From assembly GCA_003194525.1 (NCBI GenBank), contig NBIV01000361.1, positions 1 through 64,000 of the forward strand: a DNA stretch of 64,000 nt, read 5' to 3'. Source of the DNA: Gracilariopsis chorda. Lineage: Eukaryota > Rhodophyta > Florideophyceae > Gracilariales > Gracilariaceae. The notes under the pieces were generated by a model. It did no database searches. It had not been told where the DNA came from and was given only the letters and a program-made list of their open reading frames with translations. Every line of letters begins with the position of its first letter. Positions within the stretch are counted from its first letter, which is position 1. Positions 13,261 to 61,990 of the stretch are shown piece by piece. Made by a program: the position numbers and the translations under genes.

Positions 13261-13288
13261 TTTTGGTGTAAAGAATCTCAGAGAAGTC

Positions 13289-41189: not shown

Positions 41190-41810
41190 GAATCGATGCT
41201 CTTTACCCTTGCAGTGGTCTTAATAGTGCTTTTAATTGTTGAACGACGATATACGGCAAGTATAACCACCAGACGGGGACGTTTTCGACAACACCTTATT
41301 TCTGTGCTTGGTGACGTGAAGGTGTTCCTTGACACCTACGCGGCTGTTGAAGGGTTAATCGCACTCGTCACACCTGGTTGAGTGGAGGCAACGTCGAGTT
41401 GTCAGCTTCTTCTGGTGGCGGATGCGACTGTTTGCCACGCCGTAAGGGATGGTTTTTCCATGGTTAGTGATCGCCAAGAAACCTCTGAGGGTCTGATGGG
41501 CCTAGTCGTACGCTTGACGAATACTTTCCCTGAGTGTGTGAAATATTGCAGCTTTTTGCACAACGGAGCCCTGTTGAAGTCCGTCTGGACCTTCTGTGGT
41601 CTTGTCAATTGGCTTGGGAGAAGATGGTTGACTACGAGGCGTCCGCAGCTCAAGCGAAACGAGGTTGTCAAATGGTTCAAGTGATGGCGTACGGGGTTCA
41701 AAGAAGAGGTTCCAGTCAGCTACGGAGGTTCCAGACTGAGCGTGGTCCACGGGTTGCAGCGGCAGCGCTGTTGACGGTGGTTCCGAGAATATGTCAGTGT
41801 TAGTGTACGC
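41190..41810 (-). pseudogene. Second protein with two U1-type zinc fingers, broken
   Basis: The minus-strand reading from about 41810 has a Pro/Ser-rich N-terminus (FFEPRTPSLEPFDNLVSLEL near 41690), like the pseudogene at 15.6-16.2 kb. A first finger is read near 41360: CDEC, a stop, then PFNSRVGVKEHLHVTKH, with a C-x2-C ... H-x5-H pattern. A second decayed finger near 41260 reads YTCRISSFNN then, past a stop, KHY and DHCKGKEH. Two fingers after a Pro/Ser-rich region is the same architecture as the first copy. The reading is broken by four stops. Confidence 0.6.
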
Positions 41811-42002
41811 AGACGGCGAAGACCGGGGTAACCTGAATCAGAGTATTGAGCTCAATGGAAACACAAATTTGGTCAGAAATCAAGATTCTGCATGCTTAGG
41901 ATCTCTGTGGGTCATCATTACTTGGGGAATTTTGTGTAGCAAAATCCACCCCTGCTAGACGATTACCAATTTCTAGTAAGGGCTATACTTAATTCCAAAT
42001 GC

Positions 42003-42686
42003 TACAAATGTTAGGAACAGAAGTGCAATAGTTGAAGTGGTTGGAAGTCGATGATGATGGTCCGAGTTGGAGTTTGGAGCATCCATCGGGTTGTACAGGG
42101 AGTTTCTAGCCTAGTTCGATCAGTGCCGGTACTCGATGAGAACTGGTCCGAGGTAAACGAAATTATGCTTGGTATTCTGGGTGGCTTCCGTATGTTGGTG
42201 GTTTACAGGTTTCAGCGCCAGATATTTTCGTGTGATTACTTGGCGAATTCCACCAGCGGTGATGACTCGTTTTATGACTTGGAATGTGCCAGCAACAGGA
42301 AGGGTCTTCATGGTCTGGCATGAATCTAGTTTGCCCGTGATGACTTGGCACGGATCGATAGGGAATCTTTTATGACCGCTTGATCATACCTGTACCGTGT
42401 TAGGTTTCTGCCAAATTTGAAAGTAGTAGGCGATCTGTACGTTAGAGCCAACGTTGTCTACGTGGTCGAATAGGTATTGACTGATATATGCACGGTGTCC
42501 TGTCATATTGACAGTATGTTACAAAAAAAGTCAACTCAGCTTGGAGGCCAGGTAGACATGTCAAATAGATAACCGATCTCTTCAAGAAATCTAGTAGAAT
42601 AAACCTAGGTACAGTAGACACGTTACAACTGATTCTAGAGCCAACTATACTCAAATAAAGGTAAATAATAACTCAATCTTACAAAT
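42003..42686. repeat. Left arm of a ~690-bp inverted repeat
   Basis: This arm aligns in inverse orientation with 43840-44525 over nearly its full length. Shared blocks include GCATCCATCGGG near 42079, CTAGCCTAGTTC near 42107, TGTCATATTGACAGTATGT near 42500, GGCCAGGTAGACATGTCAAA near 42546 and GAGCCAACTATACTCAAA near 42637. The same relation is visible in translated form on both strands, but I regard that as a by-product. Confidence 0.85.
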
Positions 42687-43041
42687 GTGTCAAATGTAAA
42701 GTGTTATATGTCCTTGAATGAAGAGATTTCACACGATATCGACGCATTACACGTTTTAATGAGAGATATATATGATCTGCAGGCTGACTGACTGATACGG
42801 AGAGTGGAATGATTCTCTGTATAGGTTTTTGGGAAGCGATACTCACAAGAACCAAATGTTTGAAACTAGAAAACTTTGCCGAAGCTGAATTGCTTCTAGT
42901 CCACATATTCGTTGTGTTCTTGATTCACGGGCTGGTGAAGAATGGTTGGAACGAGAGTGCCCATAAATTAATGAAAGGTTCTATCGTATTTTCGAGAGCT
43001 TCTTTTGCTGTGTTCCAACAAAATGTGAACATTTCAAATTA

Positions 43042-43450
43042 CCCCTAGAAGGAAGTTTTCACTTTTAGAAGTGCATTTGGAGTGCAATATTCAAGGGCCT
43101 CGCACCCCATTTGGGTTCTTGGGTAGAGGTCCATGTATCCTTCAAATGGACACCTCCGGCACACAAAATTGCAAGTTTTCCATTTTTGGATGTCGCACGG
43201 ATTGCAAATGGCGTGTGGCCACTTTTAAAGGATTGCAAGTGGAGTATAAATGGAATGCAAAGTGTATGACCAGCACTATATCTGCGTACCACTTGCGTTC
43301 TTTGGAAATTCCATTTGAATACCTCGAGTGCAGGCAAGAAACAGAGATTTCGAGACCTCCAAATTGCGTCCAATTAGCTTCCGTGCGTCATCCGCAACAG
43401 CCATGCACGCTCCAAAAGCACTCCTAGTATTCCAAAACATCCCCTTAGGG
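43042..43450. mobile_element. MITE-2, ~409 bp, in the spacer of the inverted repeat
   Basis: The left end CCCCTAGAAGGAAGTTTTCA and the right end, read on the minus strand as CCCTAAGGGGATGTTTTGG, are followed by matching blocks (AGAAGTGCATTTGGAGTGCA on the left, GGAGTGCTTTTGGAGCGTGC on the right), giving TIRs near 45 bp. TA flanks both ends. The interior is rich in TTGCAA-type words and has no coding thread I accept. The CCCTA terminus resembles the ends of T1, so it may be a non-autonomous relative, although the flank differs. Confidence 0.65.
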
Positions 43451-43839
43451 TACACCACGATCAAGATGAGAACTGGTACATGACCAAGCAGCTACGTAGA
43501 TGCTTCGCTGTGGAATGTGGCCACCTCTGCCCAGATCTGTTTTCGGAATAAGCAGATATTTGCACCGCACGTTCTAGCCTTCTATTCGTATTGTCGTCGG
43601 AATTCAACGAACTTCCCATGGCAGTTACCACTATGGTCTATACGTGTTATAACATATAGTACGACATAACCTCAGTTCCAGTCTGAAAAGAGTCTGTCTT
43701 GCATCTGAGGTCGCGATATGCACCTATATACCAATTATGCATCGCTATGAATGAAAACAGGGGTGACCGATCCATGAAAAGTTTCGAAAAGTGCTTTAGT
43801 TTGCCTTAGAGATGGTGAGGACTGATCTCCGGTAGCCTT

Positions 43840-44525
43840 TTGTTAGATTTAGGTACTATTTTACCTTTGTTTGAGTATAGTTGGCTCCATCATCAGTTAT
43901 GACGTGTCCACGTTTCCTTTTTTTATTCTATTCGATGTCCTGGAGAGATCGATTACCTATTTGACATGTCTACCTGGCCTCAAAGCCGAGTTGACATCTT
44001 TTGTGACATACTGTCAATATGACACGACAACATGCTCATGTCAGAAAAGCCCGAACCAACCACGTGGACAAATTTGGATCCGAAATAGACGTTGTCTACT
44101 ACTTAAAACGTTGGCAAACACCCCACATGGCACAGTAATGGTCAAACGGTCATAGATGGTTCTCGAGAGATCCGTGCCATGTAATCATGAGCACTTTGGG
44201 GTTATGACACATCATCAAGACCCGGTCTGTTGCTGATCCTTGCCAAGTCATAGAACAAGTAATCAGCTGGGGAATTCGTCAAGTCATCAAACGGCTAGAT
44301 CTGGCATTGAACCCGGTAAACCACCCACATATGGAGACCAACGAGAAGACCAAGCATAAAGCCGTTAAAGACGGACAATTTCTCATCAACTAGCGGCACT
44401 GATAGAACTAGGCTAGACCCTCTATATAAACCCCGATGGATGCTCTGAAGTTCAATTCGGATCATCACCATCCACTTCCAACCATTCTCAACCATTGCAC
44501 CTCTGTTTTTAACACCATTCAAGCC
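43840..44525. repeat. Right arm of the ~690-bp inverted repeat
   Basis: It is the inverted partner of 42003-42686, with a spacer of about 1.15 kb. It contains TATATAAA at 44423-44430, so both arms could point promoters outward, as two LTRs of one family in head-to-head arrangement would. A foldback-type element is the alternative. Outer ends fade out without a clean TIR or target duplication. Confidence 0.85.
44423..44430 (+). promoter_or_regulatory. TATA-like box in the right arm
   Basis: TATATAAA sits in a CT-rich context about 30 bp upstream of a C/A-rich stretch. The inverted arm on the left has the degenerate TGTACAA on the minus strand. It is a candidate core promoter directed away from the spacer. 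No transcript evidence. Confidence 0.45.
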
Positions 44526-45228
44526 CTGAGAACTTTCTCGTGAGACGTAAACCATACTTCTCGTCTCTCTCCTAACTCCGAGAGTTGCTCACTGTAACAG
44601 ATTAGGATTGATTTATATGGAGAGCCCAAAGGCCTGACCTGTATCGCGCAAACTCCGCCCAAGTACGGGTCAATGACACCGCTTTCTTGACTATTAGTGG
44701 AGTGACGGGCTACCCTTTAAGCTTCCATTGCGGCTGTGTTCAAGCTCTTGCTGCGCCGAGAACACCACGTTTCGTAAAAAGAAGAGTAGCGGTTCTGGTT
44801 TTACAATCTTTCCAATCCCTTGACCCCTTGTAACCTCGACTTAAGGAATTCTACTCTAGATACTCCGATACGTGTCCATGTTCTTAAAGCGAAGGGACTC
44901 GACCTTGAGACCTCAAACTTCGGCTTTTATGCTTGAACCCACTTGGTCACATCGCAGGTTTTTACTCTGGCAAAGTTCGAAAACATTCCGCATTATAATG
45001 ACCGATATCCAGTTTTTTGGCCCGATATATTGACCAATTTGGCAAGACTTCCGTACACAGGTACGTTGGCTGGAAAAATCGTTGAGCTTGACTTTTCTTT
45101 TCAGCCGATCAAATAGAAAGCCAACGTTTTCGCATATGCGTTTTTAAGATACCCAAAACATGCTGAAAGTTCTGAAGTGATGAACCGCTCATTACTCCAG
45201 GAAGCAGTTTTCAGAACTTTCAAAGTCA

Positions 45229-45739
45229 ATGCTATATCTCAGCTTGAAGAAGTATAGAAAGCAGAAACGCGCGTATTCATCAACAGATATAGAAACTGCA
45301 AAGAGTTTAAAAACTTATATAAGTATCCACAGGGCTCTTTTCACAAACAAAACGTATTTTTGTATATATAGAGACGACTCTGCGTGCCCAAAGGCCAAGT
45401 ACGACTTCAGATACTACAAGACTAACAAGATCCACCTGTATGAGGATATATATTCCATTCAAAAAGACATATGAAAATATTTGAAGGCTACACCACTGGA
45501 AGTCGTTACGATAAACAAAATAAAGAATACGTCAACTCGTTTCTTAAATGCTAAGAAAAGAAATGGCGAACCACAAAATCCCAGGGTGATCTTCAACCAC
45601 TACCTCCGCCGAAAAGGAAGTGGGTACGATTTACAATGAACGTCATCACACCGCTATCCAAGACGAAAAATGGAAATAGTCAATTGTATGTGGTAGTAGA
45701 CCACCTATCCACGTTGATCAGGGTTATCGCAAGCACATC
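45229..45739 (+). pseudogene. G5 left part, Ty3/gypsy integrase up to the T1 insertion
   Basis: The stretch at 45630-45739 reads as an integrase core start. It includes RFTMNVITPLSKTKNG, where the first catalytic Asp is Asn, and LYVVVDHLSTLIRVIA. The recognisable thread stops at 45739, exactly where T1 begins. The ORF at 45229-45474 and the reading after it could be the Zn-binding region but are too decayed to prove. Confidence 0.8.
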
Positions 45740-45766
45740 CCCTAGAAAACCTATACTGCTACAAAT
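45740..45766 (+). repeat. T1 left terminal inverted repeat
   Basis: It opens with CCCTAG, which is exact in the right end. The following positions agree at AAA, T, TA, TGC, CA and AT spacings. Some mutations separate the two ends, in keeping with the decay of the genes inside. Confidence 0.75.
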
Positions 45767-45801
45767 ATGTGATTCATGTCTTACATTGTTGTGTAGCAAC
45801 A

Positions 45802-45996
45802 GGCGTACAAATCATGAGTAGAGTGTACGCCCTTGGTAGGATAGCTACAAACGGCGTTCAATTTTTTATTGATTTTTGTGTGTTTTTGGTACGCCAACCG
45901 TATTATTGCAACGAGGGTACTGCGGTATTTTTCAGATGGCGTACGAAAGGCCTATTCAACGAAATTTGTACGCCTAATGTTCGCAACGGGTACGCC
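45802..45996. repeat. T1 left subterminal GTACGCC motifs
   Basis: Six copies of GTACGCC or its complement GGCGTAC occur here in both orientations. Clustered subterminal repeats are the usual transposase-binding sites of CACTA-type elements. Confidence 0.75.
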
Positions 45997-46099
45997 TGAT
46001 GTTCGCCAAGCAGTGAAAATTCGACAATTCAAAACTAATCGAAGGCCTTTGAAAACGTAGCCAGTTGGTAAGCAATTCGTCAGTTTTTGTCAACTAGTT

Positions 46100-48227
46100 A
46101 GATTCCTAACATTAGGCATTGAGCCACAAAGCTCGCACCGATAGGCCACGCTTTCGCTATCTTCTTGCGATCTGTGGAGGACGATTATGTTTCATGGTTG
46201 TACATTTATTGTGTCCTATAGCGTATGGACTGGTTCCTCAACCGTACTGTTACACAGAAATATAAACCTGTAAAGTGACGGCCCATGCCTCTCCGACTAC
46301 TTAATTGTCTCGAAAGCGACCCCTATAAGATTGAGTGAGTCCGTGTACGTTTGTGTGCCAAATGGGCCTGTAGCTCCAACACTGCAGTGATGTAGTCATA
46401 ATAAAATTCCGCTAGGATATCTGGAAAGAACAGGTCTGTCCATGTACTTTGTTTCCCACCCCTCGTGAAAGAAACCCACAATCACTAATGACACAACCCA
46501 AGGGCTCGCTGCTGCGCTCAAATCCTATGTGCCTGTCGTTCTCTAGCTAGGAGTCTGCCGGTTGTCGCAGTAGTGATTGATACAGACCAAATTTTACGCG
46601 CATGAGGCAATGTGTGTATCCGGATCCTAGCTCAGTAGAGTATGCTGGCAGTAGGCGTTTGCTTGAGGCAGTACCCTACTGTGGGGGCAAGAAAACATGA
46701 CGGGCGGAATGCATTGGGTGCAATGGAGACGATAGATCTATCTCAACTGAGAAGATAGCATGAATGCCACTTTTCTGGAACACCAGAGTGTGCGAGTATT
46801 CAAGGTTTCCGGTGCGCAGCGTGAGAAAGAATAATGGCTGGATGCAACACATTCATCATTTGTCCGAGATGATGTCGTCCATACATCAACAATGACAAAT
46901 GCAATAGAATTCGACAAGATGCCCGAATGTACATTATGTTCACGAAAGGATTTGAAAATATTTAGCAATATTCACGAATTATACGCCATGTAGTAATCAA
47001 GAACGGTGATCCTAAGTGCCTGCTTGCTTTCAAAGTCGATGGAATGATCTGAGAATCCAAACAGTTGCATAATATTCGCTCAGATACGGTTTCCCCACTC
47101 ATACCTGATCAGATCAAGTAGCGTGTTCTTATGTGTTTTGTGAGGACTCGGGTTCTGGTATTAGACAACTCAATCGCTTCCGCTGTTTGATTGACAGTTA
47201 ACTTGCCTTTGAATACAAACTCGGGCATAGTAGTAAAGGAAGTCGTCCAGTGCAACGGCTGTGGAACGCAATTTTTGTTGCTATACTTTCTTCCTCACAC
47301 ACTGTTAACGTAGCGCACAAGCAGACTCGACAAACCACACAGCTTGGTATTATGCCCACATTTTAAACTCGAGTCCTTCTGCGTGCCTTTCAGTGGTCCA
47401 ATTAGGGACTGGAACAGCTTCTAGTTCACTGAACGTAAATGTGTGTATCTCGATTCTTTGGATGCTCCGCATTGAACCTAATCTTCTGCCAAACGGTTAC
47501 GATACCACAACGAGCTATCCATTAATTGTAGTTCTCAGAGTTCAAAGGCTGCACACCATCTGCAGATAGAAATACGACCTGAGAAGAAGTCTCGATCCAC
47601 TAATTGGTGTTGGTCAAGAGCGATGGGCTGAGATTGGGCAAGTGGTGAGGCAAGAGATACAAACTGAATGCAATGTGAGTTACAAACGCAAAGAGACGGC
47701 GGCTGAAAGGCAATAAGCATTCATAAACTCCACATCGTGGTTTTCCTATGAATTGGTGACGGGATACAGCAAGGGGTAATGCATTAACGTAGCGGTAAAG
47801 AATGTGGCAGAACGGTTGAGAGAATACAGTGACTCGCAAAAAGACGCTGAAATAAGTAAGACAGTGAGGACCCACTTTGTAAAAGGTGTAAAAGCTATGG
47901 TACGGCTTCAAGCAAAAAGCTGATGCCACAAAGTATGAGAAAGGTTGAAACAATAATGCATCAAAGCAGAGAAAGACATAGAAGAATAAGAATTCACGTG
48001 CGGCATGGCATTCTCGTGGAAGCGACATAGCTCTCTGAGCTCTTGAGCTTGAGTAAGAATGCTTTCTTGTTGAAGGTGGCGAGTGTACAAGTGGATGAAG
48101 AACACAAGTTGCGCTTTGACATAGTGCTTGACGGGGGGATAGGGAGGTCTTTTATGGAACAAAAGAGCTGGGAGACGGAACTTCATAAAGCCAACCGCTC
48201 ATTCATATGGATGCCACCTGCCTTCAA
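46100..48227. other. T1 left interior, unresolved
   Basis: A minus-strand thread at 46968-46738 contains a SNSIAFVIVDVWTTSSRT run. Longer minus-strand readings at 48186-47600 are protein-like but lack motifs. They lie downstream of the transposase and could be its eroded tail or a separate gene. Confidence 0.35.
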
Positions 48228-48584
48228 TTATGCACCACAGCGGGAGCCACGTTTGTAACACATAGATGCCATTAGTTTTGCGTCTTTGTAATGGTACTGT
48301 GAGTGGTATTTAAGGAGATAGACACTCTCTTCCAAACGCGGTATTAACGGCACGATTGGAACGATCTTAGTGAACAGTGAAGGTATGGACGCGAGGTGCG
48401 CAGTGATTCTGAAATGTTTCTTCTTCACTAAGAGAAATTGATCTCTTAGATACGAGAAACATTTTGCGACGAAGAACTGATCTAGATATGACTCCAGTTC
48501 TGGAAACCATGCTTCACGTGCTTGCCTGGTTCTATTAATCATGATGCTGATTCTCTCGTCTTCATGCGCAATTTGTTCGGACAA
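48228..48584 (-). CDS. Hypothetical protein in T1, 118 codons, possibly a fragment
   Basis: The ORF begins MSEQIAHEDERISIMINRTR and is helical with a basic middle (LVKKKHFRITAH). It ends after MCYKRGSRCGA. No family recognised. It follows the transposase reading by about 350 bp on the same strand and may be an extra exon, an eroded end or cargo. Confidence 0.35.
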   Translation of the reverse strand: MSEQIAHEDERISIMINRTRQAREAWFPELESYLDQFFVAKCFSYLRDQFLLVKKKHFRITAHLASIPSLFTKIVPIVPLIPRLEESVYLLKYHSQYHYKDAKLMASMCYKRGSRCGA

Positions 48585-48933
48585 GTCCTACTTCTCACTG
48601 CCTCATGGGGTTGACAAAATAATTCAATGATTACCACATATCACGCTTTCAATCAGAGGGCAATACTTCTAGCCGTAATTCTACGCATCTTTTCCTCACA
48701 ACCCTGCCCACTTCATTCCTATGTTGCAGCGGTTCCACCCGGGCTTAAAGAAACCTGTTTCTTATATTAAAGTATACTGGGAGAATCACGTCTGTCTCAA
48801 GGTGCTGCCATGTCTCACCATTGTATCATACAGGGCTGGACTCAAGACAAAAACGTCGTGATCGAAGGCAGGGATGTTCTCTTACTATGATCGGGTTGAT
48901 AATCATCTATGCTTCAATTCCTTTCAAAGAGCA

Positions 48934-51903
48934 TCAAACAACGTCTTTGTTTAAATCCACGTACGTCATGACACCATCCGTGTCTTGCATTTTATTGACG
49001 AAGTATGTCCGCACGGAATGACGCTTCCCACGAACAGGATAGCCCGTTTGTACTACAGCGATTGGATGACTTATCATCTCAACCTCCTCTACAATCCGGC
49101 ATGCAAAAACATGAGTCACTATCAATCCTGGAGCGGGAATAAATTTGACCTGGGTTACCTCTTCTCAAACCTCAAGTTGCCCAGTCAGCCAGTACTAATT
49201 CGTGTGAAGCTGTGCATACTTCATGGCTCAAGAAGCAAAAAGTTTTCCCGTAGTACCTATCAACCTCATTCGAACGGTTGCAAGCAAACATTCCAGAAAC
49301 GTAACATGTCTATCTATGCTCGCTATATTGAGAAAATCCGTGATATGTCCATGGGCGCAGAGTCATCATCCTGATGTCCCGCGAACGACCCCAAACGCGT
49401 ATTGAGTCATTTCGGCTTCCAAAGTTACCAGCTTCAGCTCGTGGTATGCCCAATTTCGAAATATGATAACGGACAAAGAGATCTCTTATACCCGGTGTGT
49501 TAGTTTTTTCTTCGTTGGTTATAGATGTATAACATGAAGGTCCTAGGAGAAAGAATTGGGTTTGTCCAGTTTCGGCACTACTTTGTGAAGAAATACCTGT
49601 GAAATGAGAGATCCAATTGTTATCGACATCAGTTTCTTAAATATGGGGGATCTCAATTTCATATCGAAGGCTATACAAAGAGGCTGCGACATGATACTTG
49701 ATTTTCTCCCTTGCCGACTGGGCAAAGAGAGCCTTTGCTTGCGTGATTCTGTTCACGTATCCGACAAAGTTTTCAGTTGTCCATTGCCCTAGGAGCGAGA
49801 TAGGACCAAAATTTCTAATATTCTGAGCAAGTTGTAGTATCAAATGATATAAATACTTGCAGAGATGAATTCGGTCGGGTCTTTTCTTGTAATACAGATC
49901 CACAAAATGTCTGTAGAACCTCTCGGCCAAGGACCCAGCCTGATCGACATCTTTTTCACTGTGTCTCCACTGGCACGTAAGGCGTACAAGCTGAACGAAG
50001 TACTTCCATCCACTCAATACTTGGGCGGGTGTCCAGCCGTCCCGCACTACAAGACTTTTTGAGATCGTGAATAACTTCCATTCAGATGCTTTCTAGAGTG
50101 CAATTTTGTGTAGAACTCGTGGCACCCTGCAATAGTATGAGCCAAACCCCTTCCAATAAGCTCTCAGATTATCTTTCAAAGCTTCATACACCGTTCGCGA
50201 GGACAGGTATGCTAGTTCTACATGGCGACCAGAGTCATTGCACCAAATTGAAACAACATCTTTAGCAACATTCTCAAACAAAAAGTGCATGACATCGATA
50301 GGAAAAGATCAGAATGAAAGCATGGTATTCAGTTCCAATAAAGGTGTAGGATGGGTGGAAGAGAATTCCTTTTTTTTTAAATGATATTCAAGTTCTCGTT
50401 TCGGAATTTTGAACTCCATCTCTCTAAACCAGTTACAGGCCTGCATGATCTCATTATGAATTCGGAGAGGAAGGCATGAAGGATCCCATAAACCTCGATC
50501 TACAATCCTCCTCTTTGCGTTAGATTGGTCATGGCCAGAAAAAAACGGTAGAAAGTAACAATGGTGAACATGACTGTCTCTGATGAGGCAAAACCGACAA
50601 GGAACGAGCCCATTAGGGCCTTTCAGATGAGTAAGCTTTTTCATGGCAGGTAAGTCTGCCAAATCAAACAGCAGATGCACTCTAACTATCCCGCCTTCGC
50701 CGTTCCACAGTTTTGCATTCCATCCATACAGCGATAGACTCTGAATCTCCGTGATAAATGTACGGAGAAAGTTTGTGAGTTCCTTTGGTTCATTTAGGAC
50801 AGGGATGAGAAGCAAAGGCAGTTGTCGTCTTGGCTTGAACCTAATGGAAGGTTTAGAATAACACAAAGAGCTATCCAGTACGTGTGGGTATCCGACTTGA
50901 AATGCTGCAAACCATCCGCAAGTAGAGCAAGAAATATATCATACTTCACCATCCCTAGACCTCCTATCTGTGAAACAATATCCTGGAAAATGCGACGTGA
51001 GAAGAAGTTGCTATACACTCCCTCCTCCTGTTCAAGGACACCACGCCACAAATAACTGAGAAGGAGCGGCCCCTCCACCGGACTCGGAAGCAACATCTCG
51101 ATACGTCCTCACACTGGGATGTACTCAAACAGATCAGCTGTGGTACTGAAATCTTCGTTAGTGTACGAGCATTCTAGAACCGATCCATCTGATGTTTTCT
51201 CCAGAGCTTTGTAGAATTTGGTACAAGCTGGGTGCTTTGTTTTACATAGTCCAGAATTACGCAGTAGTGCTTTGCGTACACCCGACAATGACCTATATTG
51301 GCGCTGAGAGCTATCAAATACTAAGATGTCTTTGATAAGACCAGTCATGACTGCTGAGTGCTTGATGCCAAGTACAAGCACAGTAGCGTGCTTTTCCAGA
51401 AAAAGAGAAAACTTTCTGTCCAAGCACATGACATGTCCGTTGCTTCCAAGCAAATCAGAAGAAACTTCGTTCGCTGTGATGCGAACATGATCGATGACTC
51501 GTTCTGCTACGGGTATGAGACAAAGAGAATTCTCTGACTCCGATCTGGTTGAGAGAGTGATGGATACGGTACTATTCGATTCATTCGAGTTCGATGAGTA
51601 TCCTTGACCATGTTCGATATCGTTTTCATTTATTTCACTAGCGTGAGCGTACAGAGAATAGAGCTGCAAGGAGCTAGTGATGGGAGAAGGGAGCGGAAAA
51701 ACGATGTCTTCATCATGTTCAGTTCCATCAATTCTGTTGTGTGCTGCTGCCCGATGTCGGATTGCAGTTTCTCTAGAAACCAACTTTCCTTTCCCACATC
51801 CACATTTGTAGTCAGGATGGCAAATGTATCCTAGCATACCCATATCTGGATTCATTGAATAAAAAATTCGGAGTATTTTGCACAGAGAGTCCTTGAGATG
51901 CAA
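48934..51903 (-). pseudogene. T1 transposase, TNP2/Plavaka-like
   Basis: The reading starts near 51903. A Cys/His finger (CGCG near residues 34-37, H50, H55) lies in the N-terminus. After one stop at 51109 the same frame continues to SQIGGLGMVKYDIFLALLAD and GLQHFKSDTHTYW near 50900, a TNP2 signature carrying an Asp. A shift near 50830 leads to LPLLLIPVLNEPKELTNF, then KGPNGLVPCRFCLI near 50610 (zinc knuckle). The later block IDVMHFLFENVAKDVVSIW near 50290 matches the second Asp region. Stops follow at 50309 and 50093. The C-terminal block at 49125-48934 (EEVEMISHPIAVVQTGYP) resembles the end of such transposases. About 960 codons in all. Confidence 0.78.
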
Positions 51904-52454
51904 TATGGTAACGAACTCGAAAGGAGGGATCGGATATGTCGAGCAACATGAAAACAGCCTAACAGATATGACGTCATAAGTAGTGAAAAGGGATTCCTCA
52001 AAGTTGCGAATCTGAAAAAAACTTGTTTCCTTGAAAGCGTATCCTTCTTCACTCCGCCCATTTCAGGTTGTGCGAAAGGAAATGTGACGGACAGTCATAC
52101 AGAAAGTATCACGATATCGTCACGTCACGTTTCTCTTCAAAGTATTTTGTATCACCCAACTTCCACTCAGCGTTCTATCTTTCCTTTCGTTGATCGTGTT
52201 GTGTTGGTGCTCGTATTGTGCCGGTGTTTTGTTTCAAACTGTAGCAAGAATTGCCGTCTCCTTCCCAGAAAAGAGGAGCTCTTTTGATGCATAGAAGTGG
52301 TAACGATCTGGGCGGCAACGTGACTTTTGCCCATCCTTTTGTCAGGTGTTGTCACCCCATGGGAATACGCCGCGAGCAATCTTAAGTGCGCATTCCATGG
52401 CCATGCATTCAGATAAACAAAAGTATAATTTAATTCACTGGGGAATATCGTGGC
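51904..52454. other. Intergenic region between divergent T1 genes
   Basis: The transposase (minus) and second ORF (+) point away from this 550-bp stretch, so promoters of both are expected here. I see no clear paired TATA boxes. Confidence 0.4.
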
Positions 52455-54407
52455 ATGTTTGCGTTTGAAGTAAGTGAAAGCGACGATTATTTCATTTTGT
52501 ACGACCAAATGCAACGTCACAAATGTGCACACAGCGTGTGTAGGGATATTTGTCCTCAACAAAACACCAGGTTCAAACCCTTTATCGCTTGTTCATGTGC
52601 TGGGTTCTCTTATCTATCCCAACGAAGTGCGCAGATTCTGGAGCGCTCACGAAGGACTCACCATCTCAATCTCGCACATCAGTATTAACCACGGGGATGA
52701 TAGCGAACAAAATCGTTTTTCCTGCCCCTAGTTCTGGAACTTCGGCAAAGGACTCGAGCTCGTTTGGCATTGGCAATGACATCAAGAGAGCCATCGCGTG
52801 TCACAACGAAAGCCTTCGAGAAAACGAAGCAGATTATCGTGTAGAGATCCCATTGAAGAGTACTGGCAAGTATTTTGTAGGTGTCCTGGGCAGTGTTGGT
52901 CGCGTGCTGCGCTCTTCTGATGTATTTTCACAGCATGTGAGCGGAAGAAGCTTTCGTTCCATCCAACAGGCTACAGGCCAGAACATGTTCCAGAAGTCTG
53001 TGAACGGGTTGATTTGGGATACCGACGAAAAGCACAAACTTCTTGCGTAGTCAGAAGGTGATTGGGGAGCAATGAAATCCATTTTTCAGAATCTTCGCAT
53101 TGAGTTCGCGCATAGAAATAGCAAGAATAGTGCATGATTAATGAAAAGGAGGCAGCTTGCTCGGCGCCCATGGAATGATCCAGAGGCTATGTTGACAACC
53201 AAGCAGACCTTCGAAGAACACAGAGTTCAAACGCAGCGTTTTGCTTCACGGACTCCAAATCGTATGGAGCCGAGTACGAATTTGCCTCGTTATCGCGATG
53301 ATGAACATTTGCGGGGAAAGAGAAACGGAAAGCTCAGCCAAAAGGTCGGGAGGAGTGATCGCGGAATCTTTAACAACATTTGTAGTTCCGATGATTGCAC
53401 TGGTCTTAGCTCTTCGAGTTTGGATGAAAGTAACACGAAAGGCAAACCCACGAAGCATCGCAGCTTACGAAGCAGCCAAAAAGTGGAACGCCGTAAGGAA
53501 AGCGGAACTGCTGAAGATAGTGATGATGATATTCAACCAGTTTTCAGCGCACTAAAGTCCTCGCAGGCCAATGCAAAGACCAAAACGCTTAGAACTCATG
53601 CGAAGGGGAGAGAGTTACTTCATCGCTCGGATGGTGAATTATCTGAGAAATCTGATGAGGATGATATTCCTTCAAATAAGAGTCCATACAGCTCCTCCAC
53701 GCGGAGGCTGAGCCCCAGATAACAAAATGGCAATGGAAAGAAAAGAATGTTACCTCAGCGCGTTGATGCAGGCCAGTGTGTGGCTGAAAGCCGTCAAACG
53801 TCACATGCCTCTGATGTTGCAGTAGAACCAATTTTGAGGACGAAGACTAAAGCTTCCTTCACGACACTCACCGAACACCCCAAAATGGTGAGGAAAAATA
53901 GAACTCTACTTCGCTGCGTAGACTTCTCATTCCCTCAGGAGGGTAACGAAGTTGATGTGATCGGAAGCAAGAGTACAAAGAACGTTCCGTTGACGAAAAG
54001 GAAGCAACTTGCCAAAAAAAGTAACAAGCGCCTTTTGCTTGAACGTTCTGAAGATGTGCAGTAAAAAAACTCACGTCCACAAGAAGCCAAGTCTTGAAAC
54101 CCGTTTCGAGATTATTGACGAAGTTGTGCCAAAGGGATCTCATAACTCTGGATCTTTGCCTGAACGCACTTCACATATGGATGGCAACAGAATGCGTTCA
54201 TCGGGCGAGAAAGACAGTAGCAATTGTGATCAAAAGTGCAACGTAGTAGGTTGCAACATGCAAGTTGATCCAGCTCATAGATTCAATGTGTGCGGAAGAG
54301 CCATGCATAATCTTTATTGTCAACGAGTGCTAGGTGCTGCTCATGTTGAAGGAAAGTTCATCTGCCCTTTCAATTGCGTATCGAATGCTTTGAAGCAGAT
54401 AAAATAG
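52455..54407 (+). pseudogene. T1 second ORF, SANT-like N-terminus and Cys/His-rich C-terminus
   Basis: One frame runs from about 52550 to 54064 with only three stops (53048, about 53135, 53720) and then passes to the next frame up to 54407, so the original was near 620 codons. An N-terminal extension lies in another frame from 52474. A W-x(n)-LL-x(n)-W pattern (GLIWDTDEKHKLLA, DWGAMKSIFQNLR, 53000-53090) suggests a Myb/SANT-like helix bundle. The middle is basic and acidic low-complexity. The C-terminus has CDQKCNVVGC, H, C, MHNLYC and FICPFNC, a treble-clef-like set of ligands. A DNA-binding partner of the transposase is my inference. Confidence 0.55.
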
Positions 54408-54959
54408 GCCCCCACAACACGATTTACATCTTTTGTGACTAGGCTTTCGGTCCCAAGGGAACATATAGAGCACCGAACCTGCAAAGAAGGCTGATTTCGA
54501 TGTGCTGCGAGCGATTAAGACTGTGCTTTGTGGTTACAGATGGCTATCAGTCATCGCTTAAGGGGTCTCTGAGCTTGGACTGAACGATCGAATCGTGATA
54601 TTAGCCACAGAAACTGTAGAGCTTGATGTAAAGCATTACTTACTTCTGACTGGTTCGTCAGAATGCTGTACGACTTATCCCTTTGTGGAGTAAATAATAA
54701 CATTTGTGACGTTAAGAATTAGCTTATTCTTGTAGCCCCCTGTCATCTCAAGCCTCCAACACATCGTCATTACCATGGTTTAATCTAAAATGAGCACGAG
54801 TTCAGAAACGCGGACAGCAGATTTGCAGCCAGAAGTAGCCTAACATGCTGCAGACGTGCTCCACGATAATCAACTACTCGCAGCACTATCGCACAAGTTT
54901 GCGCACCATCGGCACGCATGGTGCTCTTTAGCATGTATTTTTTGTCATATTCATCAAAA
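54408..54959. other. T1 interior, nothing recognised
   Basis: No ORF of interest and no repeat was seen between the second ORF and the Sel1 fragment. Confidence 0.4.
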
Positions 54960-55390
54960 TCACTTGCGGCGGACGGCAGTTTCGTGATAATGTGTTAGGC
55001 GTTTCGGAGGTTTGTGAGCAGCCCATTTTCGGCAATATCTCCACAACCACCTAGTGGGGTGGTTTGCGCGTAGACGACGGCGTTCAGTTATCCAGAGCAT
55101 TTGTGTAGAAAGCATAGCGTCAGAGTTGAGCACTTCTACTCCTTTTTTCAGTAACATTTCCAAATTTTATATGGCATCCACATCACTTCCTTGTGCAACT
55201 GCCATTTCATACAGCTGAGCTCAACCGTTCGCCTCGGGTCAGCCCGAACTCTACCTGCGCCAGTTTTAAGTACAACTGTAAGACTATTTATGGTATAAGC
55301 ATCACGACCCTGTTCAATCGCTTTCTCATACAACTTGACTGTTCGTGTTTGATCTGGTTCAACATCTTCTGCATCAGAAATCAGCAGCAC
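54960..55390 (-). pseudogene. Sel1-like repeat fragment in T1
   Basis: The ORF from 55390 reads RTVKLYEKAIEQGRDAYTIN, then VVLKTGAGRVRADPRRTVEL. This is the 36-residue Sel1 pattern (A-x-x-L-Y-x-x-A-x-x-x-G followed by L-x-x-L-x-x-x-G). After a shift near 55225 a further unit continues (LYEMAVAQGSDVDA, stop, NLEMLLKKGVEVL) before decay. Sel1 repeats form TPR-like superhelices for protein binding. Only two to three units remain. It appears to be captured cargo or host sequence that became part of T1. Confidence 0.68.
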
Positions 55391-55472
55391 TAGCCAAAGT
55401 GGAGCTTGTGCAAACGTTATTTATAGGTATATACCAAACAGGGGTGAGGAGAATGCAAGTGGATGCGTCACG

Positions 55473-55682
55473 ATGCCCAGCAACGTAGCAATAAGAAGCG
55501 AGAGCAAGAACGACGAGCTCTTTCTAAAAGAAGACGTGAGTGCCAACGAATCTCTGCGCCTGTGGGTTGACCAACATGTTGCGCCGCCTCCTACGAAGTG
55601 GATGAAGATGCGGTCTGTCCTTGCGAGGGGGGATGAGGTGCAGATTCACGACGGAATAAAAGTCGCAAGTGACTTTTTGTGA
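55473..55682 (+). CDS. Small hypothetical ORF, 69 codons
   Basis: The product is hydrophilic (MPSNVAIRSESKNDELFLKE) with no recognised domain. It is short enough to be chance. It is listed because it is an uninterrupted ORF beginning with ATG in a region with few others. Confidence 0.2.
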   Translation: MPSNVAIRSESKNDELFLKEDVSANESLRLWVDQHVAPPPTKWMKMRSVLARGDEVQIHDGIKVASDFL

Positions 55683-55715
55683 GGCCACGATCAATGACAG
55701 CAACTTGATACGCCG

Positions 55716-56069
55716 CTAGACACGACAGGGTTGCTGCTGTAGTTGGTGGCCCCGACTACGTCTGTCGTGGTGGGGTGGGGGACGTTCAACTTCACTTCCA
55801 GAGCGCGCTTGCGCGCATGGATGGGTTTCCAGAGAATCGTAACTCAAACGGTCCGCCCATGCAATTGCTCTTCCATTGCAACGTAGAACGCATTCCCGAC
55901 AGGCCATAGCAGCAAAAAGAGCAACTTCAGCCGGGGTAACGCATTGAAAGCAATCAACACCATAACGGTGAACGTTGAAAATATCATCTTGAATCAGACA
56001 AAAACATAGTAAAAGCGCTACGAAGCCTATCAAAAAGCTTTCGCAAGCGTGCATACGAAGAAGACGCAA
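55716..56069 (-). CDS. Hypothetical ORF with hydrophobic N-terminus and several Cys
   Basis: 117 codons. Residues 9-25 are hydrophobic (ESFLIGFVALLLCFCLI) and could be a signal or membrane segment. Then comes a Cys-containing part (VDCFQCVTPAEVALF, CRECVLRC) and a basic, His/Arg-rich tail. The middle has an ankyrin-like T-P-x-x-x-A pattern, too weak to call. Confidence 0.25.
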   Translation of the reverse strand: MRLLRMHACESFLIGFVALLLCFCLIQDDIFNVHRYGVDCFQCVTPAEVALFAAMACRECVLRCNGRAIAWADRLSYDSLETHPCAQARSGSEVERPPPHHDRRSRGHQLQQQPCRV

Positions 56070-57589
56070 AGATTATCGCTTGTGGGCTGCGAAGAGAGTG
56101 GATAAGAAAACATTATAGATACGCGTAGCGTGTAGTATGGTGTTGCCATAAGTATTGTGAGGCGGTGCTTTCAGTGGCTCATTTAGGAGATGGAGGAGAT
56201 GCGACTTTGTTAGGGGGTTGGCTGTAGACGCACGCATGAGATTGGGCATGATGACGGGTCCACGAGTGGTATTCCTAAGCCCATCATCGTTTGTGTAAAA
56301 CTCTTTACATCAAGAGCTCTTTCTTATAGCTCTTTGGCTCTTGTTGGATCTGCATCAACACTTGCAGTAATAATTTAAGGAAAACCTCCAAACGTTTCCT
56401 TCACATCTGAACGTCTTGTCATATTCAAAAATTCAATCTAATCTACAGCGGACTGTACTGCAACAACTGTAATATGAGCATGGGTTTGGATCACAAAATG
56501 TCAGATTTTGAATATACAAAAACTATCGAAGCATGCACATCACACAGATGAACTACCGTAGTTCGTTGAGGGTTGACCGATAAAAGCTGCACATGCCGCA
56601 GTTTCTGAAACTGTTGAAAAACAATTGCTGGGATTAACCTAGCATTGGTGTTCTAGAGTATTGACGGCAGTGCACTGCTTTTCTACAGATTTTTGAACAA
56701 CAAGTTGAGGATATCCACACCCTATCTGTACACTTCGAAAATTATCGTCATGAGGCTCGGCCCTGGAAAGTTAAGTTTCCAGCACCACCCGAGCTTCGAA
56801 CCCCTAACCCCAACGGTCCGCCCAACAGTTTTTTACTGGCCCACAACTGCGCTGTGTGCCTCCGCTTCCCACGATGGTTATGTTCTGGGATATCGTGGTG
56901 TTCTGTATTTATATCAGGTTGTCATAAACAAGTACAATCCGAGTACCCATTCCGATTTCCTAATATCAATCTGAGGGCTGGTAGCTGCAAATGTCGTTAG
57001 CTCCCTAGTTCGCTACAACGAGCAGTGCCATTTAAATAATAGAGAGATGTATTAAGATCTGGCAACGTTAGATTTTTTATCAATGAATTTGGAGGTGTTC
57101 AAGTGGGCACCGTACCTCTATCTGCCATTTGTGTGCAAGGATTGGGCACCAAACTTCAGTACGTGCGTGGTTCCTTCACAGGCAGCACTTTGGAAGAGAT
57201 ACGCGTATCTTATTGTAATGAGACCGGTATCGAATGTATCGATGGGAGAAGCGCAAGTATCACAGAATCGTCATCAGGAAAGGGGTCGTTAGGCGGCATC
57301 AACAGAGCCTTATAAATATGGCTAATAGTGACCGCAGTTCAATCTATGCGAACGTACACAAAGATGCTATAGCTCGACTGACGAACGACTAGTGCGAATG
57401 GTCCACAGAAGGAGCGCGCAATGGTGTACAAAGTAGAGGGGTGAGATTTTCGGGGGAAGAAGGGTTACTGCCTGGGCAAGACAAGAAGCGAGGATATGTG
57501 TAGAACGAGAGAGAGAGTTGTCGTCTTACAGAGGTTCAAGGTGGGGGCGACATCGGCGCCGTTAAGTACCAATTTAGATGTTGATTCTT
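56070..57589. other. T1 interior, unresolved
   Basis: A reading at 57103-57315 (STLEEIRVSYCNETGIECID) is protein-like on the + strand. Nothing is recognised elsewhere. Confidence 0.3.
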
Positions 57590-57966
57590 CGTGTCATCAG
57601 CCTGCACTATTCATTGAATGCACCCTCTATGCGCCTTGGGCAAGCCCCGAGACCTCCCAAGTTTACCATCGAAGCCATCTTGTTCATCTGCGTCATGTGG
57701 GGATCCAAGATCCGCTCAATCAGGTCTCCGTCAACCTAATTTTTCGCACCCACACTGAAAGGGGGCACGTGTTTCTTAATCTCCGTTCATGGACCATGCT
57801 TCAGACCCTCGACCTCAGTAATCAATGCAGCCATAGCATTCTAAACCTCCACAAAAAATTGGTACTTGTCGGCCTTCAGTGTTGCGATCACGCCCGGCAT
57901 CCCATCCGTAGTTCCAAAGATCATCGTGTTCACCGCCGCTGGCTCGTTTTCCGTCACTTCTAGCAA
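57590..57966 (-). pseudogene. Unidentified coding remnant in T1
   Basis: One minus-strand frame from 57960 reads coherently for about 120 codons with four internal stops: ENEPAAVNTMIFGTTDGMPG, ATLKADKYQFFVE, ALITEVEGLKHGP, then a LIERILDPHMTQMNKMASMV block. The even spacing of stops suggests a decayed protein and not chance. No family recognised. Confidence 0.45.
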
Positions 57967-58368
57967 GAACTACTACGCTCTTCTCAATGCTCAAGCAAGA
58001 AGTCGAAGGCAAAGATGATGCTAGAGGGAGTTCATTTCCGTTTTCTTCTTCTGCACGTAACAATGGCAAGGATGTGAACGTCCAGCTGAGGTCTTCCACA
58101 CAACGATCATTTGAATACTACAGAGCATCTGGAGACCATCACATGAAGCAGTTTAATGATCGTACAACGACACTTGGCGCCTATGAATACACATCCATAG
58201 TTTCGAAGTATGTCAAGCCCACTTTCGTCTGTTGGACAATCGAAATGCAATTTGCTGAGCTTTGACAAAATAGTGCAGAGTTCAGACTTGGGAAGTTGTG
58301 CTTTCCAACATATGCCATCCACAGCATCACCTAAGATTCGAATGTGTAATCGTTATGGATCATAACAC

Positions 58369-58904
58369 GTTGACCTCACAGGCAAACTGATCAACGATTT
58401 GCAATCGAAACAATCTCGTGGTGCTAGGGAACGTATGGCCCATTTCCTGTCTGATATTACTCCGCATACCAGTGAAACCCCAGGACGAAAGCACATAGAC
58501 AGCATTGAGACAACAGATTATCACGTTGTTGTGTTCATTACTGCCAAAGAAACAGGTCCACCAGGATAAACTGCGAAATTTATGATCCTAAAACGATTGT
58601 ACAGCCGGCATTCAGAACAACGTTGAAGGTCACCAATGCATTAGTGGCAAAGGAAATTTGTCCTCAATTGCTGCTAGAGAAGAGTTTTGAGGAGTACGTT
58701 TCCCAGATCGAAAGCGAAGAGAAGATGCCATATCGACGGAGAAGAGACGTCGATCACAGCTTGTTTGTCCAGGTTGGCATGGGCATAGAAATGACTTTCT
58801 CTTGTTTCCAAACCCAAGCTCATGGTCTTTCCCAAAAGCTTTTCATACCCTTACTCTATTCCTATCATTCAAAAAGGTTGACGTGCAGTACTTCTGGGGA
58901 GTAG
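58369..58904 (+). pseudogene. Unidentified coding remnant upstream of the CobW-like gene
   Basis: From 58372 the frame reads DLTGKLINDLQSKQSRGARE and later SIETTDYHVVVFITAKETG up to a TAA near 58567. A shift then leads into the ORF to 58904 (FRTTLKVTNALVAKEICPQL, SFEEYVSQIESEEK). It is soluble and mixed alpha/beta in character. It precedes the CobW-like gene on the same strand and may be a separate cargo gene. No family recognised. Confidence 0.45.
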
Positions 58905-59464
58905 GTATGCCCAGGAGGAAGCAAATATGAACAAATATCTTGAAGGATACCGGTGAGGTATTCGTTATGACCCAACTGTGGTTGACTTTGACGTCTTCCG
59001 CGAATCATCAGAGTCTTCAATAGTTCTGAGAGCATCATTTTCGCAGGTCAGGTCTTCCAATGACCCAAGCTTGATGCTGACTGGGGCTAGTTCTCGATTT
59101 GGAACGACAGCAAAGGTTACCTGAGGTCTGTTTCCTCAAAGGATGCCGAAACCCATTGCATCTCATAACTACACTTCACGCACGTGCCTTGCAGGCTGTC
59201 TGGACGTTTCATAAAAACTTTAGGGAATACATGACGGCGTTCTTGAAGAGGTCGTAACAACGAAGGGTTGCATATCCGAAGTAACTCATGCAACTGGATT
59301 GATGACACCTTCTTCAGTTGGACTGAAAGCTCTATTCTCAAAACTGGCTGCTATCTGCTCTTCGAGAATTCTAGAATCGTTGCATGAATGAACATACAGA
59401 TATGAACAACGATCTGACTACGGGAGTTGTCTTTTCGAACAAGCAAGTGCCACCAGGAGAATCA

Positions 59465-60395
59465 GCCAAATGATTGGGTGTGACACTGGTGACTGGGCTT
59501 ACGGGAGCTGCCAAAAGTACACCAATGAGACGCACTCTCAAAGAGAGCCATACGTTGAAGCTAATTGTAATCTAGAATGAATTTGCAGATATTGCAGTAG
59601 TGGGAGGAGCGAAAGTGACTCACGGACCGAAAATTCATTCTTTGGAATGTTTCATTAAGCTGTCGAACGGGTGTAATTGGTGCGCAGCGCAGGACGACTT
59701 GGGGATGCTCTTCAAAGGTTGTTGGACTAAAAAAGGGGCGCTTTTGATCATGAAATTATCGAGGCTAGTGATATAGCAGGTCCCAGTCCCGTGGTGTCTT
59801 CTTTCTGGGTAGATCAAGGACTGGACTCTGCCCTCTATCTTGATACCGTTGTGCTGGCTTTGGATTGTGTGAACTCGCAGCATTTTGTTGATGATGGATA
59901 GACGCGGTTGGTGGCTAGGAAATTCATGAGGATTGCGGATGTGGTGCTACTGAGCAATATCGACCTGTTGCAAGGTGAAGCAACGCGGAACGAGGGAAAC
60001 CTTGAATAAGAAAAGTAGCTTATAAGGATGATTCGGGAGTATGAATGCAAATCGCAAATTATACTGACTTCGAGATGAAACGTGGAGCTACAGAAGCTGT
60101 TCACCATTCAAATGTATGACAGTGAAGCGACGTTAGGAGATGGGATACATAGCGATGGATATGGAAAGAGCCATGCCAGACTTGAGTCAATAAGCACGAC
60201 GATGGTAGCGTTTGAGAACAGGAGTTCTGACGCCGTCAAGTTGGAGCGTGATGTGGGTAGTTTTTTATGGGAGAAGGAACGCAGCGGTGAGGGAGGCGGG
60301 GGGGCAATACAGATATGGAGAATAGGAGCGCTGGTGGTCATTGTGGACGAAGCGAAAAAGTGGATACTGAAGACCGCATTCTGACATAGTTGCAT
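59465..60395 (+). pseudogene. COG0523/CobW-type P-loop GTPase (Zng1-like), broken, T1 cargo
   Basis: COG0523 proteins are GTP-dependent metal chaperones; the Zng1 branch delivers zinc. A P-loop GLTGAAKST is encoded at 59495-59521 (second Gly to Ala). The metal-site motif, C-x-C-C in the family, reads SNGCNWCA at 59663-59686. After a shift near 59740 comes AGPSPVVSSFWVDQGLDSA, then DTVVLALDC and the NKxD-like box SNIDLLQGE near 59955. The CobW C-terminal domain follows (DGIHSDGYGKSH near 60140, VGSFLWEKE near 60260, KKWIL near 60355). Stops at 59573, 59774 and about 59900. About 305 codons, near family length. Confidence 0.85.
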
Positions 60396-60818
60396 GGGAA
60401 GGATGCTCCGATGATTGTAGTATACTTGCTTGAGGGATTATTTTTCTCAGCTATCGCGTTTGAAGCACGCACTGCTGCTTTACCATTTGGCTTGAAACTA
60501 TATGGCCACGGATTGCGTTTGGGCGCACAGACAGGGGGCGCCGCAGAAGTGCTTCGACTCCCACACTTGTATGCTCGTGAAGCTGAGTAGAGAGAATCAA
60601 TTGATTTAGATGCCGGCGATGTTTTATTTCAGTACTAGGAACGGAGGGGGAGAGTTAACCTGCTTCATTGTATTACATTCGTACGCAATGCACTGCAATA
60701 TTGGGCTCTACAACTGGCCAACCCTTCACAGAAATTGGCAGTTGAGCTCTTGTGGCATACTCGTAGCGTATTCTGATAGGTTGCAGTTCTGTTTAAAAAT
60801 GGTTACATGCAACAAATA
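60396..60818. other. T1 right interior, no gene recognised
   Basis: A 66-codon ORF at 60390-60590 (GLFFSAIAFEARTAALPFGL) overlaps the end of the CobW-like gene. No motif. Confidence 0.3.
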
Positions 60819-60974
60819 GCGTACACCCACTCCTACTACAAAAATAACTGCACTGGCTTACGGCCCAAAGCGTACGCCACTTGCCGATTTCCTCAATACT
60901 ACAACGCTCATTCTGTCACATTATTGGTACGCCATTTAGTGTAAGATAGCACTACTTTTGCACATCAGTACGCC
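60819..60974. repeat. T1 right subterminal GTACGCC motifs
   Basis: Three exact GTACGCC copies and one close variant (GCGTACA) lie within 160 bp of the right end. The same word at both ends links them as one element. Confidence 0.75.
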
Positions 60975-61001
60975 ATCTGCGGCACTAAACTTTTGCTAGG
61001 G
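60975..61001 (-). repeat. T1 right terminal inverted repeat
   Basis: Read inward it is CCCTAGCAAAAGTTTAGTGC followed by CGCAGAT. It is closely matched by the end of T2 at 62390 (CCCTAGTAAAAGCTATGTGC), which independently supports this boundary. Confidence 0.82.
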
Positions 61002-61990
61002 ATCAGATTTCACTTCAGTTCAGATTGCAGAACTCAACTGGAAACATATACATGGACATTTTGGCTTCTCTGAAGTTATTATCTCTGACAGGAACAAGAG
61101 TTTTCTGAGCAACCTTTGGAAAGCACTGTTCCGTATCATTGGCACTAATATAAGGACAACATCAGCATATCATCCACAGACAGGTAGTCAATCCAAGGTC
61201 TACAACAAGATAATTGAAGAAAGTATTAGAGCATATATCAATTTCAAGCAATCAAAGTGGGATGGACAACTCATAGAGTTCGTAGTCGCATACAACTCGT
61301 CAGAGAACTCAATTACAATGCTTACACCATTCCTTTAACATATTGTGATCAACCAAGAGTACTACCACTCCATACTATAATATCTAATAATGATGCAGCT
61401 CTCAAGTTCATAAAAAGCAAAAAAAAGCAACAAGAGAAGCAAGAACGCAGATTGAAAGACACACTCGTTACTTCAAGTCATAGGCAGACCGGCATTGATA
61501 CCTTTGTACATTGAAATTTGGAAAACAAGTCAATTTGACCACAAAAAACCTGAATGTAGACCACATGGAGAAGACGTCCAAAATACAAATCCGATACTGT
61601 GGAACATTGCAGATTACGGAAAAACTTGGTCCAGTAATATTTCCACTAGAGTAAAGCCATACACTGACGTCAAGGATTCATGATGTTTTGCACGCTAGTG
61701 CTTTCAAACCTTACCAAGAAGAGAAGTCAATTCGTCCCGGACCATCTTATCAAACCCCAGTAACATTGAGAGGTGAAACAGAAAACTACGCCTTAGATGT
61801 ATCGTGAACGACAAAGAAAGTGCTAGATGGTTTGAATTTCTTGTCAAATGGCTTTGATATCCAGATCATGAGAACATTTGGATGAAATAGAAAGATCTCA
61901 CGAACTGCAAAGCACTTCTCCGGTAGTATAAGAAGACGAATGGAATGCTACAGAGGAAGAGATAGGCATTCCGGTATCAAGTAATCCTAA
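61002..61990 (+). pseudogene. G5 right part, integrase continuation and chromodomain
   Basis: The thread resumes immediately after T1 with a TSVQIAEL block, then a HGHFGFSEVIISDRNKSFLS block that keeps the second catalytic Asp. The third site has SKVYN where Q-S/T-E-R is usual, so Glu is lost (about 61193). Helices continue to 61340. A C-terminal barrel remnant follows, with ASAFKPYQEE near 61700. A chromodomain remnant reads FEFLVKWL, stop, YPDHENIW (about 61830-61885). The right flank joins the left flank in frame once T1 and one ATC copy are disregarded. Confidence 0.85.

Follow-up and report, generated by a model that had tools for sequence, protein, structure and literature searches.

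What is the DNA that splits a gypsy integrase frame on a contig of the red alga Gracilariopsis chorda, where did its contents come from and is it still functional? The stretch analysed here (the window, 64,000 nucleotides) is contig C361 (NBIV01000361.1) of the 91.3-Mb assembly, and the insert occupies window positions 45740-61001, a length of 15,262 bp. The account given below is, as a whole, highly probable. The insert belongs to a cut-and-paste transposon family of the CACTA/EnSpm type, about 22.6 kb long in its young form, which codes for a TNP2 transposase as well as a second protein and makes 3-bp target duplications. An ancestor of the family would have taken up a single piece of host chromosome, represented today by 11.3 kb of contig C102 (45670-57015), and this cargo would afterwards have been re-templated in part from the host locus. 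The window copy, lying in the gypsy integrase, is an old and dead member with a 9.3-kb deletion.

The insertion and its element family

The insert begins with CCCTAGAAAACC at 45740 and finishes with TTTTGCTAGGG at 61001, giving termini of the form CCCTAG...CTAGGG, and the triplet ATC stands directly outside it at 45737-45739 and again at 61002-61004. The integrase frame, read by eye across both borders, breaks off at 45739 and picks up in the same frame past 61004. The words GTACGCC/GGCGTAC occur six times in the left 300 bp and three times in the right 300 bp, with one occurrence in the 14.7 kb between these end regions and four in the 48.7 kb outside the insert. The features of the borders are as follows (window coordinates, strand where applicable, and basis).

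45555..45739 (+): left piece of the split gypsy integrase frame (frame list, paralogue alignment, Pfam on L044)
45737..45739: target site duplication ATC, left copy (sequence; triplet present once in each of four gypsy paralogues)
45740..45763 (+): left terminal inverted repeat, CCCTAG plus about 24 bp, imperfect (sequence)
45803..45996: left subterminal repeats, 6 GTACGC/GCGTAC words (word count)
60681..60974: right subterminal repeats (word count)
60978..61001 (-): right terminal inverted repeat, ...CTAGGG (sequence)
61002..61004: target site duplication ATC, right copy (sequence)
61005..61338 (+): right piece of the split gypsy integrase frame (frame list, paralogue alignment, Pfam on L044)

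In a search with the left flank, in which the best 40 of 74 candidates were scored, two matches were the window itself and contig C105, and four other gypsy copies (L042-L045), 77-79% identical over the left flank, were cut out. All four run continuously across the joined flanks with just one triplet, this being ATC in L042, L043 and L045 and ATT in L044. Three of these alignments are gapless over 120 bp, while that of L044 has a 2-bp gap each way approximately 40-50 bp to the right of the junction. Since the triplet is single in the uninterrupted paralogues, the window insert is an insertion with a 3-bp duplication. A sequence-only reading had proposed exact CCCTAG ends, ATC on both sides and a clean in-frame split of the integrase; these are borne out by the sequence and by the four empty-site paralogues, in every one of which the integrase halves are contiguous. 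The two integrase pieces of the window gave no Pfam match on their own; the uninterrupted paralogue L044 matched RNase H and Integrase_H2C2, together with rve below its cut-off.

The window's own frames gave no Pfam match above cut-offs, and it was intact relatives that allowed them to be interpreted.

48913..51855 (-): TNP2/Transposase_21 transposase remnant with 7 in-frame stops and frame breaks (match to intact relatives)
52544..54407 (+): broken second gene of the element (642 codons open in relatives C418 and C491b)

The transposase of the relative on contig C418 (L027:3142-6105) matches Pfam Transposase_21 (PF02992) at 2.4e-14 and corresponds to G. chorda BWQ96_10587 (100% identity over 99% of length); the window remnant is 82-84% identical to it. 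The 642-codon frame has a cysteine-rich end, yielded neither a Pfam match nor a homologue, and is possibly a TNPA-like partner. The element thus has a TNP2-type transposase, a 3-bp target duplication and subterminal repeats, and its terminal inverted repeats are CACTA-like in kind (CCCTA being one letter off CACTA), features which place it, as predicted from its sequence, in the CACTA/EnSpm (CMC) superfamily. This agrees with the type first proposed for it. A Pack-TYPE element is without a transposase of its own, whereas here the transposase gene is present in the same element.

Queries with the element's ends identified further family members. The left end gave 12 matches, and flanks were read for 11 of these (C418 starts inside the element), revealing seven distinct sites (ATC, ATA, ATT, TCG, CCT, TCA and TTG). 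Ten of 13 right-end matches are near-full ends of the same family, at six distinct sites (ATC, GTG, ATA, CCT, ATT and TCG); the other three are C53 and C102, which match only the first 168 query bases (captured coding sequence), and C151, a lone diverged 151-bp end. CCCTAG is present in all 11 left ends read and CTAGGG in all 10 right ends, and such ends and the transposase were found together at other loci. Equal triplets at both ends were found for five distinct sites (ATC, ATA, ATT, TCG and CCT), in line with the 2-3 bp duplication anticipated, all but ATC being paired across contigs and the ATT and TCG right ends having been read after the left ones were already known. The chance of four random triplets pairing completely is about 24/64^4 = 1.4e-6 (hand arithmetic, assuming equal base use).

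Identity to C418 is 99.0-99.5% over approximately 9 kb for C644, C552 and C19, and 99.5% over 18.9 kb for C491b. When the flanks of the ATA site and those of the TCG site were joined up, both gave empty-site matches at 99-100% over about 200 bp (13 for the ATA site and 27 for the TCG site among the best 40 of 1691 joined-flank candidates). Both sites sit in a high-copy repeat, about 1.24 kb from each other, and one copy of this repeat on C491 holds both insertions, 1,250 bp apart (C491:12929-14180). Near-identical copies at different sites, together with empty sites, show that the family has moved recently. The length of the young form, approximately 22,575 bp, was obtained by hand arithmetic over overlapping contigs, summing the C418 position plus 35 and the 7,119 bases from the giant-gene frame described below to the right end (C491a and C273; 7,120 in C171).

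The 988-codon transposase frame is open in two of five young left halves (C418 and C491b), has one stop in C644 and is broken in C19 and C552. Synonymous to nonsynonymous changes number 10 to 6 for C418-C644 and 9.5 to 5.5 for C418-C19 (omega 0.17 each), and for C418 against three older copies (C164, window and C105) omega is 0.56-0.68. From these few changes, the transposase looks conserved among the young copies. For the second gene, omega is 0.49 against C644 (7 to 12) and 0.47 against C19 (3 to 5), which is weak evidence of constraint.

With the transposase as query, the genome gave at least 63 matches (the best 46 of 141 candidates were scored). Many of them are at 28-44% identity, and one, at 34%, runs uninterrupted within an open frame of 1,176 codons (C354:35838-38207). 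TNP2 elements therefore appear to be numerous and diverse in G. chorda.

Captured host DNA and its host-like tracts

At the host locus on C102, DDB1 frames lie between 53505 and 57012 next to a divergent 3,569-codon frame (the giant gene) at 42079-52788. Homology between element and host, with limits as drawn by BLAST, extends from C102:57015 to 45670, starting 3 bp past the DDB1 stop codon and ending inside the giant gene, and so covers the whole of DDB1, the spacer and two thirds of its neighbour. Host positions below refer to the host sequence at this locus. Among PDB chains, those named DNA damage-binding protein 1 are matched by the captured DDB1 piece (best 4.5e-103), which also matches Pfam RSE1/DDB1/CPSF1. 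The frame of host DDB1 itself is broken twice by a single base, each time within or next to a run of G (C102 about 55260-55275 and 55675-55690), and the second break is also in C491a; these could be assembly errors. The protein search with the giant gene listed 16 relatives at 33-83% identity, among them FGB62_2g10 of Gracilaria domingensis (60%), while Pfam and PDB sequence searches gave no match. Its N-terminal membrane segment and a motif point to a putative likeness to the BLTP1/Csf1 lipid-transfer proteins. Further copies of the 5′ part of this gene occur at C76:114262-116078 (71-78%) and C219:86711-88522 (92-97%).

Young copies are arranged in the order TNP2 transposase, 642-codon second frame, captured host DNA and right end, with 394 bp of element between cargo and right end in C491a. 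The right capture boundary is identical in 7 of 7 copies compared (C105, C208, C219, C467, C491a, C545 and window), the junction sequence being common to C491a and the window copy, and the left boundary is identical in C418 and C164. The simplest reading of these shared boundaries is that there was one capture. Pack-CACTA capture between two nearby insertions has been described (PMC13317346), and the Pack-TYPE paper generalises that model (PMC8903248). The segment may have been taken up in this way or by gap repair; the 394 bp of element to the right of the cargo and the two young copies 1.25 kb apart on C491 would fit the Pack-CACTA model without proving it.

Within the cargo, the identity of the elements to the host jumps between tracts. 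At host 2500-3500, C418 is 97% identical to the host and C164 89-91%. At 4000-5000, C418, C208 and C164 are each about 86% identical to the host and 91-94% among themselves, with 95 sites at which all three have a non-host state in common. At 5000-8500, C418 and C208 are 96-99% identical to the host; C164 reaches 85% over the initial 500 bp, after which there is scarcely any alignment. At 8500-9438 it is C208 that is close to the host (97-99%, C418 88-92%), and host 9439-9925 (487 bp), at the border of a host-like tract, is absent from C418 and C491a. At 9926-13092, C418 and C491a are 97-98% identical to the host, C208 81-88% and the window (from 11648) 76-81%. In the part 11648-13092 there are 184 sites at which C491a agrees with the host against a non-host state shared by C208 and the window, and nine that all three elements share; C491a is also without a 1-kb stretch found in C208, C545, C467, C105 and the window. 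At 13160-13321 the element type is back, with 15 sites common to all three elements versus seven.

This mosaic shows cargo tracts that have evidently been overwritten by host sequence at a later time, different tracts in different lineages, and gene conversion, in which homologous repair uses the host locus as template, is the likely mechanism. There is a good probability that captured cargo stays in repair contact with its parental host gene and that in active copies it is partly renewed from there, with the renewed tracts differing between lineages, probably via excision-gap repair, which would keep long open host frames travelling and reset their apparent age. Repeated independent captures of the one locus would also yield tracts of host identity that differ between C418 and C208, and CACTA capture is a process described in plants (PMC8903248 and PMC13317346). 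However, this explanation is quite unlikely, as the host boundaries described above are shared (right, 7/7 copies; left, C418 and C164) and the host-like tracts adjoin element-type tracts inside the captured segment.

It was also considered whether selection maintains the captured copies of DDB1 and the giant gene as functional cargo. Open 653-codon frames of the C-terminal part of DDB1 exist at three loci (C418, C426 and C273) and an open 606-codon frame of the start of the giant gene at four. Omega is 0.55-0.63 in host 6203-8499, a result compatible with weak constraint and to that extent against a purely neutral cargo, and mostly 0.28-0.85, with one short tract at 1.92, in the remaining DDB1 tracts, which mix in host-derived sequence. 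Against this, the one clearly unconverted DDB1 tract (host 4000-4999) gives element-element omegas of 1.03, 0.90 and 0.91 with 2-5 stops, suggesting neutral evolution there. In the recently converted tract, host 9926-13092, omega between the host and C418 and C491a is 1.00 and 0.96; C208 and the window give 0.75 over host 11500-13092, with 7 and 6 stops; and the DDB1 of C418 is split over three separate frames. The long open cargo frames would be due to recent conversion. Selection for function is consequently improbable and the cargo appears to be mostly a passenger, although there may be weak constraint in the 5′ part of the giant gene.

Taken by itself, the identity of the host to C418 or C208 has no direction, and conversion could in principle have run from element to host. 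In favour of this, identity of the host to the orthologue P0005 is 68-75% in 9926-13092 and 79-85% in the remaining tracts that were compared. The same dip is seen against P0006 (40-51% versus 54-65%), which marks the region as a more variable one and not as one that was replaced. Over host 11500-13092, identity to P0005 is 75.1% for the host, 72.5% for C491a, 58.8% for C208 and 53.4% for the window, and over 9926-11499 it is 67.8% (host), 65.5% (C491a) and 58.0% (C208), the unconverted elements (53-59%) falling below both host and C491a. C491a is only 80-87% identical to C208 in the host-like tract in comparison to 94% over the 624 bp of the right end. Because C491a has lost its likeness to its sister elements and unconverted elements are less like P0005 than are the host and C491a, transfer from host to element is supported, and the opposite direction is very improbable.

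A number of observations weigh against the account of a mobile family with a singly captured, host-renewed cargo. Three further distinct sites are one-ended (TCA and TTG left, GTG right). Empty sites were found for two of the four young sites, with ATT and CCT not among the best 40 of the 1691 candidates. No whole young copy lies on one contig among those examined, 22.6 kb being pieced together from overlaps, and C426 would exceed its sister copies by approximately 2.5 kb in the part from the giant-gene frame to the right end. The host match of C208 starts at 2853, short of the left capture boundary, and those of the window and C105 start at 2018, not 1976. The transposases of C418-C491b and C418-C552 differ by 0 synonymous to 3 nonsynonymous and 0 to 2 changes, numbers too few to tell. 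Assembly joins could mimic some of the tract borders, yet C418 and C491a show the same borders.

The window copy and its counterpart on C105

The captured part of the window copy consists of the following remnants.

57636..57953 (-): remnant of captured host DDB1, 3′ end (element 11897-12214 versus host 2018-2334; protein match 57844-57969)
57953..57954: internal deletion junction, 9.3 kb (host 2335-11647 gone), common to C105 (host alignment)
57954..59381 (+): what is left of the inner part of the captured 3,569-codon second gene (host alignment)
59382..60378: approximately 1-kb stretch absent from host gene and young C491a (present in window, C208, C105, C467 and C545)
60379..60608 (+): last piece of captured host gene, up to the shared capture boundary (host alignment)

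The DDB1 protein match ends at 57969, a few bases beyond the deletion junction, and the stretch at 59382-60378 interrupts the captured gene in the older lineages. A frame at 57445-57963 (+) was discounted, as it runs antisense to the DDB1 remnant. Because its transposase is broken (7 stops) and 9.3 kb are deleted internally, the window copy is an old, dead, non-autonomous relic. It had initially been taken for a large, gene-carrying member of its group and a possible vehicle of host genes. The type and the exact ends stand, as does the link to host genes; what the window holds is a dead deletion derivative of the 22.6-kb form, whose cargo is only the tail of DDB1 and pieces of the giant gene.

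C105:82799-97972 is 96-97% identical to the window insert, with the same flanks, ATC and internal deletion. Window pieces at 36000 and 63000 match C105 at corresponding distances (96 and 97%), the latter piece also matching C467. The C361 and C105 blocks are accordingly allelic or duplicated and not independent insertions. The window and C105 transposase frames, which contain 7 and 6 stops, give omega 0.94, a value that fits unconstrained decay of both after their separation. Two independent insertions into one gypsy site would likewise leave two copies with identical flanks and ATC, but with collinearity at 96-97% on both sides and an internal deletion common to both, this can practically be dismissed. 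It was also rejected that gypsy retrotransposition had carried the insert along, since collinearity of C361 and C105 extends to flanking sequence far from the insert.

A short way before the insert, the match of C105 to window 41564-41094 is in reverse and adjoins 44710, as if approximately 3.6 kb (window 41094-44710) were inverted between the two blocks. Also in the window, a frame at 55148-55420 (-) has a Sel1-repeat-like match below the Pfam cut-off (E 0.0048), and three long adjoining frames at 1264-4292 resemble another retrotransposon, with reverse transcriptase, RNase H and integrase recognised by eye.

Comparison with known elements

The Gracilariopsis element is larger than the autonomous En/Spm elements of plants, has ends of CCCTAG instead of CACTA and resides in a red alga. 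Like those elements it has TNP2, subterminal repeats and a 3-bp duplication, and in addition a second gene that is possibly TNPA-like (PMC8978399 for their structure).

The case is a worked example outside land plants of a young giant CACTA element taking a whole host gene (DDB1) and its neighbour in one block, and indicates that host sequence can replace parts of the cargo anew after capture. Should this be general, estimates of the age of captured genes and of selection on them that use divergence from the parental gene would be biased, and homologous exchange between mobile cargo and parent gene becomes testable. No report of host-to-transposon conversion of captured cargo was found in the open-licence literature, as judged by titles and the starts of abstracts, and in PMC8547701 the gene-conversion term is present only in the reference list.

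En/Spm families that measure 16-20 kb and have 4-5 ORFs are reported from Chondrus crispus (Kojima, Bao and Jurka 2013, Repbase Reports 13:2577, as cited in PMC6431247). The combination of size, ends and cargo had first been thought unfamiliar; given that CCCTA is so close to CACTA and that red-algal En/Spm elements of this size are on record there, that view holds only in part. The Chondrus elements are likewise giant, red algal and equipped with several ORFs; compared by their description only, they differ from the Gracilariopsis element in that much of the length of the latter is a captured host segment. Red-algal EnSpm elements of giant size are already known, and so is the capture of genes by plant CACTA elements. 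What is new, as far as the open-licence literature tells, is the capture of DDB1 together with its neighbour by a red-algal element, followed by overwriting of this segment with sequence from the host locus. Tgm-Express of soybean, Pack-CACTA of Arabidopsis and the CACTA elements of Chenopodium likewise combine terminal inverted repeats and a 3-bp duplication with pieces of host genes. Unlike these plant elements, as they are described, the G. chorda family bears a transposase and carries DNA from one 11.3-kb segment, comprising a whole gene, a spacer and part of a second gene, which has apparently been overwritten in part from the host.

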